A stretch of DNA of 33,704 bases from IMG/VR virus record IMGVR_UViG_3300021371_000059, positions 1-33,704 of that record, one strand, 5' to 3'. This document shows, piece by piece, positions 6,286 through 26,819 of the stretch. Made by a program: the position numbers and the translations under genes. How positions within the stretch are numbered: position 1 is the stretch's first letter; every line of letters begins with the position of its first letter. The DNA comes from a virus. Below the pieces are notes generated by a model. That model saw only the letters and a program-made list of their open reading frames with translations. It was not told where the DNA came from and did no database searches.

Positions 6286-6306
6286 AATTTCTCCAATAAC
6301 TCTAAA

Positions 6307-6322
6307 TTAATTCTATAATTAA
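6307..6322. promoter_or_regulatory. Palindromic operator candidate in the divergent control region
   Basis: TTAATT-CTAT-AATTAA, perfect 6-bp arms. It lies 22 bp upstream of the HTH start and just downstream of that gene's -10 candidate, so a bound dimer would block its transcription. A related AT-rich palindrome lies at 12763-12777 near another promoter candidate. Confidence 0.5.
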
Positions 6323-6323
6323 G

Positions 6324-6352
6324 TAGATATTATTTTTTTGTTGCAAAGTCAA
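6324..6352 (-). promoter_or_regulatory. Promoter candidate for the minus-strand HTH unit
   Basis: Read on the minus strand: TTGACT (6352-6347), 17-bp spacer, TATCTA (6329-6324). The -35 matches sigma70 at five of six positions; the -10 is weak. The same TTGACT with a 17-bp spacer is found at 12752-12724. The predicted start falls inside the palindrome at 6307-6322. Confidence 0.45.
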
Positions 6353-6369
6353 ACGCTATCGATTAATTA
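6341..6369 (+). promoter_or_regulatory. Weak promoter candidate for the plus-strand early unit
   Basis: TTGCAA (6341-6346), 17-bp spacer, TAATTA (6364-6369), on the strand that reads into the HNH gene. It overlaps the minus-strand promoter candidate, so the two could exclude each other. Match to consensus is modest; the evidence is mostly that an operon of about 5 kb starts here. Confidence 0.25.
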
Positions 6370-6395
6370 TGGTTTATAACTTTTGGAGAGTAAAA

Positions 6396-7001
6396 ATGAG
6401 AAGTATAGCAACTGAATTTAAAAGATTAGGTGTAGACCACCCAGATAAAGGGTTTGTTTCAGTATGGACAAGGCAATTATCAAATGATGAAAAGTCTCGA
6501 TTGCGTTCTGAGTTTCGTGAAAATTTAATGTATAGCCAAATGAAATGCTGTCAAATAACAGGTTCGAGAATAGCTTTAGTAGCTAGTCACATAAAGCCGT
6601 TTGACCACTGTGCTGATGAAGTTGAAGCGGTCACTTATCTAAACGGTTTATTGCTGAGAAGAGATATAGATTATCTTTTTGACAAAGGCTACATATCGTT
6701 TGATAGCAAAAGAAGGCTTATGATTTCTAGTAAAATCAAAGAAGCTCTTGGATATAAATGGGCTGAACAGATGGATATTGCTCTAGGGAAAGGCGCGATG
6801 AAATCTTGGGCAGTCGGTGGTGAGAAAAGCAAGATTAAGCCTCTCATACTTCCAATAAACGACAGGTTTTCTGGCAATACCCCAACAAATTTACTTAAAA
6901 GGCACTTAAAAAACCAAACAAAAGCAAATGAAAAAAGAGAAGAATATATGGATTATCATAGACGGCATATATTCAAGTCACCAGAAATTCAAAACAATTA
7001 G
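6396..7001 (+). CDS. HNH endonuclease (HNH_2 type)
   Basis: 201 aa from ATG 6396, which has TTGGAGAG in place as ribosome binding site; an earlier in-frame ATG at 6369 lacks one. The central region has the HNH_2 pattern: KCCQITGSRIALVASHIKPF (Cys pair and His), then NGLLLRRDIDYLFDKGYISF (the N and second-H-equivalent region). This fold is common in restriction-type and phage nucleases that cut DNA with one metal ion. Both flanks are charged and not recognised. It is the first gene of the plus-strand unit, ahead of the recombination module. It could be a homing, restriction or host-DNA-degrading enzyme; sequence does not decide. Confidence 0.8.
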   Translation: MRSIATEFKRLGVDHPDKGFVSVWTRQLSNDEKSRLRSEFRENLMYSQMKCCQITGSRIALVASHIKPFDHCADEVEAVTYLNGLLLRRDIDYLFDKGYISFDSKRRLMISSKIKEALGYKWAEQMDIALGKGAMKSWAVGGEKSKIKPLILPINDRFSGNTPTNLLKRHLKNQTKANEKREEYMDYHRRHIFKSPEIQNN

Positions 7002-7009
7002 AGTGAAAT

Positions 7010-7846
7010 ATGAGCCAAGCATTAACAAACTTTGCAGAGTTGGGGCTAGACCATTTTAGCCCCTCTCAGCTTAATAAGCCTCTAGCTGTATGGATGTTTC
7101 AGTATGTGGCTTTAACCAAAGAGGATAGGCGGCAAATCAAAGTCGGCTATCCTGCTATTTATGGCACGGCAGTTCACAACGGCACTCAGCACTATCTCTG
7201 TGATGGGCTGGTGCTAGAGGATGCTGTTGAAATGGCTCTGACAAGCTACGACTTACAGCAAGTCAAAGACACTGACGAGGAGCGCAACACAGCCTACAGA
7301 GATAAGATACAGCTAGCAATCGAGCAAGGTATCGAAGTTCTTGGTGATACTTTCGATAACGCAGAATCAGAGAGGCACGTTAGCTTAGAGTTGCCAGATG
7401 TAGTTCTTCCAATAATCGGATATGTAGATTTTATAAAAGATAATGTGCTGTGTGAGTTTAAGACCAAGATAGGCAGAATGAACCAGCCCAAAAAGGACGG
7501 TACAAGGTCACTAGGCAAGGCTCAGATTCCAGATGAGCCTCAGCAAGCTCACGTTGAACAGGTAGCTGTCTATAGCAAGGCTACTGGTGCTATCCCATCC
7601 ATAGCTTACGTAAGCCATGACAGGGCAGTGAGGTTTGACCCATTCAACTGTCAGGCACTTCGGGCTGATAACATCGATAAAGCGATTGAGCGAGTGCGTC
7701 AGAAGGCTCTAAAGCGTCAGAACCTAATAGCGTACTCCAATGACCCAATGGTGCTTGGCGGTATCTTAGAAGCCGATTTTAGCCACCCATTCTACTGGGA
7801 TGACCCAGACAACATCGAATATGCAAAGGAGATATTCAAGGTATGA
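7010..7846 (+). CDS. PD-(D/E)XK exonuclease (Cas4/RecB-like)
   Basis: 278 aa. RecB/Cas4-type nuclease motifs are seen in order: YGTAVHNGTQH with His56, IIGYVDFIKDNVLCEFKTK with Asp140, Glu149 and Lys151, and QQAHVEQVAVYSK with the conserved Gln. The N-terminus has SPSQLNK, the usual start of this family. In phages these enzymes resect dsDNA ends to produce ssDNA for an annealing protein. The next gene, overlapping by 4 nt, is exactly such an annealing protein, so the pair works like lambda Exo and Bet. No Fe-S cysteines typical of Cas4 are obvious. Confidence 0.85.
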   Translation: MSQALTNFAELGLDHFSPSQLNKPLAVWMFQYVALTKEDRRQIKVGYPAIYGTAVHNGTQHYLCDGLVLEDAVEMALTSYDLQQVKDTDEERNTAYRDKIQLAIEQGIEVLGDTFDNAESERHVSLELPDVVLPIIGYVDFIKDNVLCEFKTKIGRMNQPKKDGTRSLGKAQIPDEPQQAHVEQVAVYSKATGAIPSIAYVSHDRAVRFDPFNCQALRADNIDKAIERVRQKALKRQNLIAYSNDPMVLGGILEADFSHPFYWDDPDNIEYAKEIFKV

Positions 7847-8439
7847 GTAAACTATTCGCAACCATGTCACAGATTGACATATCCAAAATGACTGAGCGTA
7901 AAAACGGCTTTACTTATTTAAGCTGGGCGCACGCTTACAGATTATTGAGGCAATACTGCCCAGAAGCTGAAATAGTAAAATCAGTATTTGCTATGCCTGA
8001 CGGCAGACGGCTACCGTATATGGTGGATGAAGCTGGTTATGCTTATGTGCAAGTAACCGTGATTATCGAGGACTACACTTGCGTTGAAGTCATGCCTGTC
8101 TTGAACCACGCTAACCGCCCAGTGCAGAACCCCGATAGCTTTGCTGTAAATGCCAGCCTACAGAGATGTATGGCTAAGGCTATCTCAATGGCAACAGGAT
8201 TGGGTATCCATTTATATGCTGGCGAGGATATGCCTCAGCAAACAAGTGGGTTGGCTACAGAAGCACCTTTGGCACCTCAGCCAGTAAAGAAATTAGATAC
8301 GAGTACGCTTGTGTCTCTTGATGCACAGCTAGAAAACTGTGTGGATATAGAAGCCTTGAAGGAGTTGTATAACTCCAGATTGGATTGGACTAAAGAACAA
8401 ACAGGATTATTCTCAGCCAGAAAAAAGGAGCTAATGTAA
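7843..8439 (+). CDS. Single-strand annealing protein, DUF1071/Sak3-like
   Basis: 198 aa, overlapping the exonuclease stop (ATGA). The N-terminal domain has the DUF1071 signature: TYLSWAHAYRLLRQYCPEAE, then YAYVQVTVIIEDYTCVEVMP, then FAVNASLQRCMAKAISMATG and LGIHLYAGEDMP. As I recall, DUF1071 proteins are RAD52-like phage recombinases (Sak3 group) that coat ssDNA and anneal complementary strands. The C-terminal 60 residues are a linker plus a small helical segment and vary in the family. Works with the exonuclease just upstream and the SSB-like protein downstream. Confidence 0.85.
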   Translation: MSKLFATMSQIDISKMTERKNGFTYLSWAHAYRLLRQYCPEAEIVKSVFAMPDGRRLPYMVDEAGYAYVQVTVIIEDYTCVEVMPVLNHANRPVQNPDSFAVNASLQRCMAKAISMATGLGIHLYAGEDMPQQTSGLATEAPLAPQPVKKLDTSTLVSLDAQLENCVDIEALKELYNSRLDWTKEQTGLFSARKKELM

Positions 8440-8682
8440 ATGGCATATGATAATGAAATGACTGGGGCTATGTTCCCAAATGATAAAGGCGATAATCCAA
8501 AACGCCCAGACCATCGAGGTGATATAACAATCGGTGGCGTAAAGTATTCGCTATCCGCTTGGAACACCACCGCTAAGAATACTGGGAAGCCTTATATTTC
8601 AATTAAGGTATCTGAGTACGTTGAGCGTCAGCCTCAACAGCAACCAGCACAGCAATCGCTCGTTGATGAAATACCGTTCTAA
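8440..8682 (+). CDS. Small single-stranded DNA-binding-like protein (80 aa)
   Basis: 80 aa, beginning MAYDNEMTGAMFPNDKGDNP, then a beta-rich core DITIGGVKYSLSAWNTTAKN and KPYISIKVSEYVE, a Gln/Pro linker, and the tail VDEIPF. The first part matches the YDNxxxGxxFxNDKxxxxxxPDxxG pattern of small phage proteins that I recall near recombination genes. The acidic tail ending in Ile-Pro-Phe is like the C-terminal tip by which bacterial SSB recruits partners. SSB function is inferred from these and from position after the annealing protein. It starts immediately after the preceding stop. Confidence 0.7.
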   Translation: MAYDNEMTGAMFPNDKGDNPKRPDHRGDITIGGVKYSLSAWNTTAKNTGKPYISIKVSEYVERQPQQQPAQQSLVDEIPF

Positions 8683-8860
8683 AAAAGAGCAAAAACTAGC
8701 CGCTACCCCAGTTTCAAGATTAGACACTTGTAGCTGGTGTGGCGGTACTTTTAACTGGCAAACAGAGGGAACAGTAAATGCAAATGGGGATATCTTCTGC
8801 ACAGATAAGTGCTTTGATGCCAAAAGGCACAACAAACCAGCAAGTTTTGAAGAACTTTAA
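8666..8860 (+). CDS. Zinc-ribbon small protein (64 aa)
   Basis: I choose ATG 8666, inside the tail of the SSB-like gene, over the frame opening at 8621. The 64-aa product has CSWCGG then CTDKCFDAKRH: two CxxC/CxxxC pairs about 25 residues apart, a treble-clef or zinc-ribbon layout. Flanks are basic (MKYRSKKEQK). Such small Zn proteins often bind DNA, RNA or a partner enzyme. No strong ribosome binding site is seen, so translation is probably coupled. Overlaps the next gene by 83 nt. Confidence 0.65.
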   Translation: MKYRSKKEQKLAATPVSRLDTCSWCGGTFNWQTEGTVNANGDIFCTDKCFDAKRHNKPASFEEL

Positions 8861-9344
8861 ACTTATATTAAGGGCTGTATCGAAAGCATCTGACATTTTT
8901 GAAGAGCAGATTTTAGGCGATAATCGTCAGCATGAAATTTCGAGAGCAAGGCGTGTGCTAGCTTATTTAGCGGTGACTAACCTTAAAGTTTCTAATAGGA
9001 AAATTTCAATACTTATGGATTTAGATAATAGTAGTGTTTTGTATATGGTGAGAAAGGTAGCGCAAGATTTAAAAAAATGTGATATTTTGACTGTAGATTT
9101 ATTGAATAAATCGATTGCAGAATATAAAAATATTAATGTTAAGAATTTCACCATGAGCCGAAGTAAGCATTATAAATCAATGGTTTTGTTAGGAATGTAC
9201 GATGATGGTATGTTGATTACCATCGATGGCGAAAGTATATTTAAAGAAATGAACAGCCAGCAGATGATAGGGCTAGCCATAGAGCTTCTCGAAAGGGCGC
9301 AAATTAGTGCGAATTTACCGCAGAAAGAATCGGATTTCCAATAA
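8778..9344 (+). CDS. Stand-alone DnaA domain IV-like DNA-binding protein
   Basis: 188 aa from ATG 8778, which has AGGGA about 8 nt upstream; starts at 8784 or 8817 are possible. Residues about 41-97 align with the DNA-binding domain IV of DnaA: basic and helical HEISRARRVLAYLAVTN, then VSNRKISILMDLDNSSVLYM and VRKVAQDL, corresponding to ARxxAMxLA, the HTH and the DHTTVxxA signature (here DNSSVLYM). There is no Walker motif, so no AAA+ ATPase. The C-terminal 90 residues (SKHYKSMVLLGMYDDGMLIT, FKEMNSQQMIGLAIELLERA) are not recognised. It may bind DnaA boxes in host or phage DNA, as initiator, competitor or regulator. Confidence 0.65.
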   Translation: MQMGISSAQISALMPKGTTNQQVLKNFKLILRAVSKASDIFEEQILGDNRQHEISRARRVLAYLAVTNLKVSNRKISILMDLDNSSVLYMVRKVAQDLKKCDILTVDLLNKSIAEYKNINVKNFTMSRSKHYKSMVLLGMYDDGMLITIDGESIFKEMNSQQMIGLAIELLERAQISANLPQKESDFQ

Positions 9345-9543
9345 CAACAAGTGCGTCAGGTTCTTGTTTGATGAATTGCATAGACAACGCTGTACTGAAA
9401 TAGATTTCAGTGAGCGCACTGGCATATATAGAGGTACGCTTAGAAATTGGAGAACTTGCTCAAACCCCAGAGTAAATGATTTGGATTTTGCTTTGAACGT
9501 GCTTGGCTACGAAATTGTAGTGCGCCCCATAAAACATGAATAG
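9307..9543 (+). CDS. Small helix-turn-helix protein (78 aa)
   Basis: The frame starts with GTG at 9307 and overlaps the end of the DnaA-like gene by 38 nt. The core FDELHRQRCTEIDFSERTGI and YRGTLRNWRTCSNPRVNDLD followed by FALNVLGYEIVVRP is a Cro/C1-type HTH with the usual last helix, as in phage transcription regulators. The first 15 residues are basic. It is the second HTH regulator of the phage, transcribed opposite to the one at 6076-6285. Roles in early-to-late switching are possible; the start is not certain. Confidence 0.65.
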   Translation: MRIYRRKNRISNNNKCVRFLFDELHRQRCTEIDFSERTGIYRGTLRNWRTCSNPRVNDLDFALNVLGYEIVVRPIKHE

Positions 9544-9997
9544 ATTTCTAGCTGAAAGATTGAGCCATTCAAGTTACGGACTTGTAGGCGAGTGCATCGC
9601 TATGGCGGCAATACTACAGAGAGGCTGGGGTTGTGCAATGGCACAGCAGGATTCTGTGGACTTGGTATGCTGGAATATTGAAAACGGTGATAGCTATTTA
9701 GTGCAAGTAAGAAGCTGTCAGGAATCAAGACAGCATAAGAACCGCCTATATTTTCAGATGGGTTTGGGCGGCAAAAAAGATGTTGATGGCATTAAAAGAA
9801 AACGGATGCCAACCAGAAATGATTTTGATATATTAGCCCTTGTTGCCACCGAACAGCGCACCTGTTTTTTTATGCCTGTGGTTGGTATCAATCAGATAAA
9901 AATAACCAAGCAACCCAGCTTCTTTGATAACCCAGAAATCGAATCAGAAAGCTGGCGAAAAACCATAGAGGTACTAAATGACTATCCCAAATCGTAG
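9536..9997 (+). CDS. PD-(D/E)XK endonuclease-like protein
   Basis: 153 aa, overlapping the HTH gene by 8 nt. The N-terminal half has a nuclease-like layout: SYGLVGECIAMAAILQRGWG with Glu19, QQDSVDLVCW with Asp42, then SYLVQVRSCQ where the family has QVKS; here Lys is replaced by Arg59. This resembles group-I-intron-type and resolvase-like PD-(D/E)XK proteins. The Lys-to-Arg change may lower or end catalysis. The second half contains FDILALVATEQRTCFFMPVV, typical of such folds. Role unknown; it is between the regulators and lysis genes. Confidence 0.55.
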   Translation: MNRFLAERLSHSSYGLVGECIAMAAILQRGWGCAMAQQDSVDLVCWNIENGDSYLVQVRSCQESRQHKNRLYFQMGLGGKKDVDGIKRKRMPTRNDFDILALVATEQRTCFFMPVVGINQIKITKQPSFFDNPEIESESWRKTIEVLNDYPKS

Positions 9998-26180: not shown

Positions 26181-26819
26181 CTAATTAACTAACGAATCTT
26201 GCCGTGAATATACAGATTTAATTTGCAGTGAGCCAGTACCGTAATGACTACGCTGTTCGTCTACCTTAACCTCTTCCATACCACGGCTGAATTTCTGGTC
26301 ATAAACTGCCGCCCTCTGCTCATCTAAAAGATAAATGTAAGCCTCAGATAAAGCACCATACAAATATAACTCAGGAGAGCGACTAAACAGTATTGGCGTA
26401 GTGCTATCAGATATTGCTGGTAATGTGCCAATATAGACAATTTCCATTTGATATGCGCTATCTGGTATTGGTCTTACTTTCATCTCAGAGCCAACAATGC
26501 TGAAACCTTGCGGTCTGCCTGTTGAATTAGTGCCATAAGTTTGGTCTAAGTTTGTGGGGCTAAAGTAGCTTAGAACCTTAACAGGGTCTGTGTTTAGCTT
26601 TGCCTCTCGCACTTCCCTAAAGTCAGTCGGCAAAGTTACATACTGGTCATTAGCTGTGAGATTAGTTGTAGCTCTTTTTTCTTGCTCTCGCGTTTCTAAC
26701 TCGCGGCTCATTCTGCCTTCCGCAAGCTGGATAAATGTAGGTATCTGAGTTGTTAAATCATCTCTGGCTAGAAAGTCAGCTATGGTACTCTTTAACTCTG
26801 CGTAAGTGCTAATGCTCAT
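26181..26819 (-). CDS. Head-to-tail adaptor (SU10-type)
   Basis: 212 aa, with its ATG overlapping the upstream stop as ATGA. It opens MSISTYAELKSTIADFLARD, then TTQIPTFIQLAEGRMSRELE, the N-terminal helices typical of podovirus adaptors (gp11 of phiEco32/SU10, gp6-like). The middle has LPTDFREVREAKLNTDPVKV and QGFSIVGSEMKVRPIPDSAY, then EIVYIGTLPAISDSTTPILF and SPELYLYGALSEAYIYLLDE, all in the usual order. The ring of adaptors joins portal to nozzle. Its spacing to the nozzle (about 6 kb, with fibres between) is unusual only in having fibres inserted. Confidence 0.87.
   Translation of the reverse strand: MSISTYAELKSTIADFLARDDLTTQIPTFIQLAEGRMSRELETREQEKRATTNLTANDQYVTLPTDFREVREAKLNTDPVKVLSYFSPTNLDQTYGTNSTGRPQGFSIVGSEMKVRPIPDSAYQMEIVYIGTLPAISDSTTPILFSRSPELYLYGALSEAYIYLLDEQRAAVYDQKFSRGMEEVKVDEQRSHYGTGSLQIKSVYSRQDSLVN

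Follow-up and report, generated by a model that had tools for sequence, protein, structure and literature searches.

A stand-alone DnaA domain IV protein as a fixture of a podovirus lineage, with two forms of the DNA-reading head

The window analysed in this work is a virus record of 33,704 bases, whose source phage is known from environmental DNA only. A run of genes on its forward strand encodes a PDDEXK-like exonuclease, a Sak-type single-strand annealing protein and a single-strand DNA-binding protein (SSB), followed by a small protein with cysteine pairs, by the 188-aa protein that is the subject of this study and by a small putative helix-turn-helix (HTH) protein (Table 1). The ORF of the 188-aa protein, which had been picked out from the sequence in an earlier note, is present as described there. 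Profile matches to the exonuclease, the annealing protein and the SSB confirm its place in a recombination unit, and it does not lie beside the initiator-like gene, since the O-like initiator is located about 4 kb away on the other strand.

Table 1. Features of the DnaA domain IV (DnaA-IV) locus and of the initiator region in the window
Feature	Position	Strand	Basis
Stand-alone DnaA domain IV-like protein, 188 aa	8778..9344	+	ORF; PF08299, 37.3 bits; fold
DnaA domain IV fold, residues about 25-120	8850..9137	+	Superposes on 3pvp (model 25..120) and 1j1v (25..118)
Start of recognition helix, DNSSVLYM, residues 83-90 (E. coli DHTTVLHA)	9024..9047	+	Alignment to E. coli K-12 DnaA
Unrecognised module at the C-terminus, beta-beta-beta-alpha, residues about 136-178	9183..9311	+	Model of residues 117-188 alone
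Probable ribosome-binding site of ATG 8778, GAGGGA	8765..8770	+	L001-L004 also G-rich here
Small protein with CxxC and CxxxC pairs, putative zinc finger	8666..8860	+	ORF; overlaps the DnaA-IV start by 83 nt
Single-strand DNA-binding protein (SSB)	8440..8682	+	phrog_18154, E 4.9e-11
Sak-type single-strand annealing protein	7843..8439	+	PF06378, E 2.6e-37
PDDEXK-like exonuclease	7010..7846	+	PF12705, E 0.0099 (below cut-off); phrog_1706, E 3.4e-8
Downstream gene for a small putative HTH protein	9307..9543	+	ORF; divergence dip
O-like/DnaD-like replication initiator	4109..4891	-	phrog_186, 428, 270 and others, E 1.6e-11 to 2e-10
Putative phage origin with three 15-bp iterons, within the initiator gene	4550..4594	.	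Repeat family D1

The overlap of the DnaA-IV gene with the preceding ORF is probably real, because four close relatives in viral contigs (L001-L004) keep both the ATG and a G-rich box at the equivalent position; ATG 8817 is an alternative start. The overlapped small protein had no significant Pfam match, and its homologue in phage C72C1 (OQ984150.1) gave sub-threshold matches to DUF2256 and zf-FCS. In C72C1 and L020 the DnaA-IV gene likewise begins inside this ORF, which eight of the 11 covering records have as a separate overlapping frame. The other three are distant relatives (L014-L016), in which the DnaA-IV ORF itself opens with the MKYRSK start of the CxxC protein. Downstream, homologues of the small putative HTH protein matched HTH_Tnp_1 below threshold only. 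The next gene (9536-9997) encodes a phrog_5018 protein with a sub-threshold PDDEXK_5 match, which recurs downstream in L020 and, from a reading of the ORFs, apparently also in C72C1. Upstream of the exonuclease, a cargo slot at 6369-7001 holds an HNH endonuclease gene; in L001, L002 and L004 the slot is taken by a gene for a 300-aa protein, which in L001 belongs to phrog_5931, and there is a difference in the promoter-proximal block as well. A search for tRNA genes found none.

The Pfam profile Bac_DnaA_C (PF08299) matched residues 29-94 of the 188-aa protein over positions 3-69 of its 69, with 37.3 bits (E 2.9e-9) against a curated cut-off of 31.5 bits, and it matched at this one place only within the 33,704-base record. 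The NCBIfam models of full-length DnaA matched through their C-terminal part alone, the best of them reaching 38.9 bits against a cut-off of 410. An AlphaFold2 model, built on 20 lineage sequences, has a mean pLDDT of 62.6 over the whole protein and block means of 74-86 over residues 21-100. This model superposed on the DNA-binding domain of Mycobacterium tuberculosis DnaA (3pvp; Z 13.8, rmsd 1.9 Å, 95 residues) and on that of E. coli (1j1v; Z 13.4, rmsd 1.9 Å, 93 residues). The top six entries of the structure comparison were all DnaA, and the seventh dropped to Z 6.3. Both the profile comparison and the superposition, which the earlier note had named as checks, thus gave the similarity and the fold expected of domain IV, and the protein is, by profile and fold, a DnaA domain IV without an ATPase. 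The DnaA DNA-binding layout predicted in the note was borne out as to the presence of the domain, but its span by structure is wider than the residues 41-97 given there.

No Pfam family besides Bac_DnaA_C matched the protein at E 1 or better, neither an AAA+ ATPase domain III, for which the full-length DnaA models gave no match either, nor a HuH transposase domain. The absence of an AAA+ domain and of any recognised family in the remainder of the protein, as originally claimed, therefore stand. A search of PHROGs at E 1 or better returned no match, and hence none to an O-type or DnaD-type initiator family, and PADLOC did not match the protein either. Behind the domain, a second module was predicted when residues 117-188 were modelled alone (block pLDDT 80-90 over that model's own residues 21-60). 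The module had no Pfam match, resembled PDB entries only weakly (Foldseek E 0.66; Z up to 4.5, to COMM-domain proteins) and gave two tblastn matches only, at E 7-8. This beta-beta-beta-alpha tail perhaps serves for dimerisation.

The proteins of L001-L004 are 66-72% identical to that of the window. Those of L014-L016 are 33-34% identical; they have both the domain and the C-terminal module, and their gene occupies the same slot, behind the SSB. Phage C72C1, whose portal protein is 76.5% identical to that of the window over 85%, carries in this slot a short form of 116-117 aa (gene at 26306-26656), as do L019 and L020, and the C-terminal module is absent from this form. PF08299 was matched in 10 of the 13 records examined, and the non-matching contigs (L017, L018 and L021) stop about 0.9 kb or less past the exonuclease match, before the slot. 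With the window included, all 11 records that cover the slot have the gene, behind an exonuclease, a middle gene and an SSB, and it is a fixture of this podovirus lineage.

Eight of these records have Sak as the middle gene (by profile in the window, L001, L019 and C72C1; by ORF lists in L002-L004 and L020), and L014-L016 have a phrog_11717-like one; L014, the one tested of these three, matched phrog_11717, of unknown function, and had no Sak match. Among the relatives, two unrelated SSB types alternate in the slot at 8440-8682: a phrog_18154/7364 type in the window, L001, L004, L020 and C72C1, and a PF00436 type in L014 and L019. The DnaA-IV proteins of L019 and L020 are 80% identical, while their SSB types differ. 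Two pattern-based scans of genome contigs, one with the window form and one with the short form, found no relatives outside phages, and a plasmid search found none either. The tblastn search of 50,697 phage records with the window protein at E 1 had no match. Scans for the short form returned 29 and 31 loci, with 29 contigs common to both. In the sequences used, L014-L016 begin two codons before the ATG and several short forms lack the initial Met, which leaves the domain unaffected.

The bases of the DnaA box TTWTNCACA are read in E. coli DnaA by R399, P423, D433, H434, T435 and H439 (PMC7561715). In the alignment to E. coli K-12 DnaA, the window protein has R50, R74, D83, N84, S85 and Y89 at these sites, and DNSSVLYM replaces DHTTVLHA just as the earlier note had written. 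R399 and D433 are therefore kept exactly and the change of T435 to S is conservative, while P423 (R74) and H434 (N84) are lost; at H439, M. tuberculosis DnaA also has Y. None of the eight window-form sequences (window, L001-L004 and L014-L016), the form with the C-terminal module, keeps P423 or H434, and this clade presents N, P, R or I at H434 and R, T or S at P423. The short form was represented by 32 proteins (24 distinct), which comprise 29 scan loci together with L119, L121 and C72C1. D433 and H434 are kept in all 32 and P423 in 31; residues 435 and 436 are each S or T, and residue 439 is Y, in every one of them. Because the base-reading residues are retained in nearly all of these proteins, the short-form reading head looks constrained. 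L121 (3001-3342) encodes a divergent short form, 46% identical, with the motif CDHSTVYYA, in which P423 is replaced by S and the remaining reading residues are retained. In the window's clade the head varies although DnaA boxes are conserved widely, which speaks against these boxes as the sites that it binds at present.

Nucleotide identity between the window and L001-L004, taken in 200-base segments, falls to 64-76% across 8801-9200, against mostly 84-98% in the flanking segments. A second dip (76-83%) lies at 9301-9600 in the downstream HTH gene, and others were seen at 6369-7001 in all four comparisons, at 5001-5600 in L002-L004 and at 8101-8400 in L002 and L003. Over residues 29-97, dS was 1.02-1.48 and dN 0.29-0.40 (dN/dS about 0.2-0.4), while over residues 126-187 dS was 0.20-0.65 and dN 0.04-0.05. 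The low dN/dS suggests that the domain of the window is under purifying selection and has been maintained. Diversifying selection on the reading head was considered as the cause of the dip and rejected on these values; the raised dS suggests instead that the DNA-binding domain was exchanged with a diverged allele. A simple picture of domain exchange is complicated by the linker (residues 98-125), where dN slightly exceeds dS in window/L001 and window/L003; by the overlapping first 28 codons, where dN exceeds dS in many pairs; by the near-identical pair L001/L003, which has no dip; and by three pairs with L004 that are saturated in the domain, so that dS is not computable. Site numbers are small throughout.

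Genes of this kind are found in other phages. In BFVD, 24 of the best 50 matches are named 'Chromosomal replication initiator, DnaA C-terminal' (92-290 aa), the best match of that name having an E of 1.1e-4. Six INPHARED genes were inspected, from the Rhizobium phage RHph_N28_2, the Microcystis phage Mae-JY35, the Bradyrhizobium phage ppBeUSDA76-2, MW202613, MW202483 and MW462191. The stand-alone gene adjoins a replisome organiser in MW202613 and a DUF1376 gene in RHph_N28_2; a DUF1376 gene lies about 1.1 kb from it in ppBeUSDA76-2, and in MW202483 the distance to a gene for virulence-associated protein E is about 0.7 kb. No annotated replication gene is adjacent in Mae-JY35 and MW462191.

The window contains 3 DnaA boxes against 3.72 expected, and C72C1 contains 3 against 2.40. 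Five other phages with a stand-alone DnaA-C gene have 1, 0, 1, 0 and 6, the last being MW202483, with 2.0 expected (the scan of RHph_N28_2 covered 50,000 of its 52,336 bases). No cluster of boxes was found in the seven phage genomes scanned, with a maximum of one box per 500 bp. In MW202483.1 (L075), a podovirus whose stand-alone DnaA HTH gene encodes 98 aa, three of the six boxes lie within a stretch of replication genes (32444-37437). Avoidance of DnaA boxes was also considered and set aside: the 29 short-form loci have 6 boxes against 14.1 expected, but form a redundant set, and the 11 non-redundant loci, C72C1 included, have 5 against 8.1, which is not significant (11 of 40 shuffles gave a count that low, as did 16 of 60 permuted motifs).

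The iterons inside the initiator gene adjoin an AT-rich stretch at about 4471-4545, and together (4471-4594) they form a putative phage origin. The 184 bases around the iterons are 90-91% identical at the DNA level in L014-L016; in L014, the one of these three that was profiled, most other aligned segments are about 40-75% identical. Two natural swaps bear on the relation between this region and the DnaA-IV gene. In C72C1 and L053 the DnaA-IV proteins are 99% identical and the first 95 aa of the initiators 18% identical; in L039 and L037 the corresponding values are 100% and, for the initiator N-termini, 22%. The iterons switch between a 24-bp and a 15-bp period together with the initiator N-terminus. 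Both swaps involve the short form; as all four records but one are metagenomic contigs, either pair may reflect a chimeric assembly. These comparisons, with that of L019 and L020, show the short form to be uncoupled from the phage initiator, the iterons and the SSB type. Since the swaps leave the short form intact and DnaA boxes occur at chance in the window and in C72C1, the DnaA-IV protein is probably not an origin-iteron binder. The earlier suggestion that it brings host factors to the phage origin is weakened, as the short form stays 99-100% identical while the N-terminal half of the initiator and the iterons are replaced, and also as the window has no excess of DnaA boxes.

We propose, tentatively and at somewhat less than an even chance, that the protein is a host-directed DNA binder that ancestrally competed with DnaA and whose target has shifted in the window's clade, the role of the host being the part that we infer. 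The domain IV made by the phage would bind duplex DNA at specific sites. As it lacks domains I-III, the protein should not bind ATP, form a DnaA filament or load a helicase. Its sites would lie outside the phage origin, most likely on the host chromosome. The short form, with its intact head, would sit on host DnaA boxes at oriC and at DnaA-controlled promoters as a competitor devoid of ATPase, which would keep the host from starting further rounds of replication and leave the replisome to the phage. The form of the window's clade, with a changed head and a tail that is perhaps dimerising, would be retargeted and occupy a different sequence. A more specific version is possible but rather doubtful: that the protein is a decoy which takes over host DnaA boxes and stops initiation, and that the window's clade, having gained a new head by domain exchange as well as a tail, acts on another control sequence of the host.

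Phage genes aimed at DnaA have precedents in lambda P and YfdR (PMC4776307). The host-directed reading is further favoured by the domain and its fold, by the constrained head of the short form, by the uncoupling of this form from initiator and iterons with DnaA boxes at chance, and by the purifying selection that the dN/dS suggests in the window's domain. Against it stand the variable head of the window's clade, with DnaA boxes so widely conserved; the two of six other phages with the gene beside a replisome-organiser or DUF1376 gene, and the third with DUF1376 at a distance; the box count of MW202483; and the possibility of chimeric assembly in the swaps. The notion of the earlier note that the protein occupies DnaA boxes to block host initiation fits the short form, which keeps the reading residues, but does not readily fit the window copy, which has lost two of them.

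The main rival, also unlikely though possible, is a regulator of phage transcription, in which domain IV would be the operator-binding head and the tail would dimerise, switching phage or host genes between the early stage and the late one. A regulator is favoured by the nature of domain IV, which binds DNA through a helix-turn-helix, and by the role of DnaA as a regulator of promoters. The downstream gene also encodes a small putative HTH protein, and identity dips in both regions, as would be expected if the DNA targets changed between lineages. On the other hand, the window and L001-L004 hardly differ in the early divergent promoter region (6286-6345), and the variable promoter block ignores the DnaA-IV allele: the window and L003 share the block and differ in their heads, while L001 and L003 have the same head and differ in the block. 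In addition, no 9-10-mer recurs among more than two of the intergenic stretches of the window, repeats being found in pairs only. Control of phage genes, which the earlier note had also offered, thus keeps some probability, lowered by the one early-promoter block examined, which did not covary with the protein.

It is improbable that the protein is a replication accessory, which would bind in or close to the phage origin and, with the O-like initiator, assist its melting or the loading of the host helicase. This explanation keeps weight because the gene adjoins or lies near replication genes in several of the six phages inspected (MW202613, RHph_N28_2 and ppBeUSDA76-2, three of the six), and the TTTTTC/TTTTCC core of the window iterons, read by eye, resembles half a DnaA box. 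It is opposed by the two swaps, in which the same short form goes with wholly different initiator N-termini and iterons, by the window and L001, whose iterons are nearly identical and whose reading heads differ, and by the lack of a box cluster in the seven genomes. Least probable is an accessory of recombination, an adaptor that would keep the annealing protein or the SSB attached to duplex DNA and, in the window's clade, have little sequence specificity. The fixed slot, which follows the SSB immediately or nearly so in all 11 covering records, and the two base-reading residues lost from the window head fit this, but the neighbours are exchanged (L014 has no Sak match and a PF00436 SSB, and L019 and L020 differ in SSB type) and the short form retains base-reading residues for which a non-specific binder would have no use.

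Many phage genomes have an annotated gene for a stand-alone DnaA domain IV, and this lineage offers an unusually clean test of their role, in that the short form keeps the reading residues and the long form has lost two, while initiator, iterons and SSB have seemingly been swapped by nature around a nearly unchanged protein. If the host-directed reading holds and the protein acts as a DnaA decoy, phages would have in it a simple and general means to stop replication of the host chromosome; if it has been retargeted, the lineage would be a natural experiment in changing the specificity of domain IV.

In the open-access papers searched we found no work that assigns a function to a stand-alone domain IV from a phage, and no mention of phage C72C1. 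An inovirus survey screened for the Bac_DnaA_C domain (PMC6813254), and PMC6293099 mentions DnaA in relation to helicase recruitment. A domain IV parted from the DnaA ATPase is also known in TnpA-REP, whose subclass 2.1 carries a C-terminal domain like Bac_DnaA_C (PMC6006769). Its authors consider that the domain may have evolved to recognise a new target, and the flanking repeats are unlike DnaA boxes (PMC6006769); there, however, the domain is fused to a transposase, which is absent from the window protein. Lambda P and the prophage product YfdR hinder host DnaA by binding the DnaA protein and so are phage products directed against it, but that source, where consulted, does not describe them as copies of domain IV (PMC4776307).

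Compared with DnaA itself (PF08299; 1j1v and 3pvp), the window protein is alike in fold, in the order of helices and in the equivalents of R399 and D433 (R50 and D83). It differs by P423 to R74, H434 to N84, T435 to S85 and H439 to Y89, by having no domains I-III that could be found and by its C-terminal beta-beta-beta-alpha extension. The DnaA C-terminal proteins of uncultured Caudovirales in BFVD (for example, A0A6J5KJ76) likewise have domain IV in a short phage protein. The same is true of the six INPHARED proteins, but the alignment showed no clear counterpart of the C-terminal module in them, and two of their genes adjoin replisome-organiser or DUF1376 genes, unlike the window gene behind its SSB. 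The short form of C72C1 agrees with the window protein in the slot, the overlapping CxxC neighbour and the domain, whereas it and its IMG/VR relatives, with 116-117 aa, have an intact head and no C-terminal module. The stand-alone phage DnaA-C protein is a kind already annotated, and the retargeted, tailed form is a variant of it.
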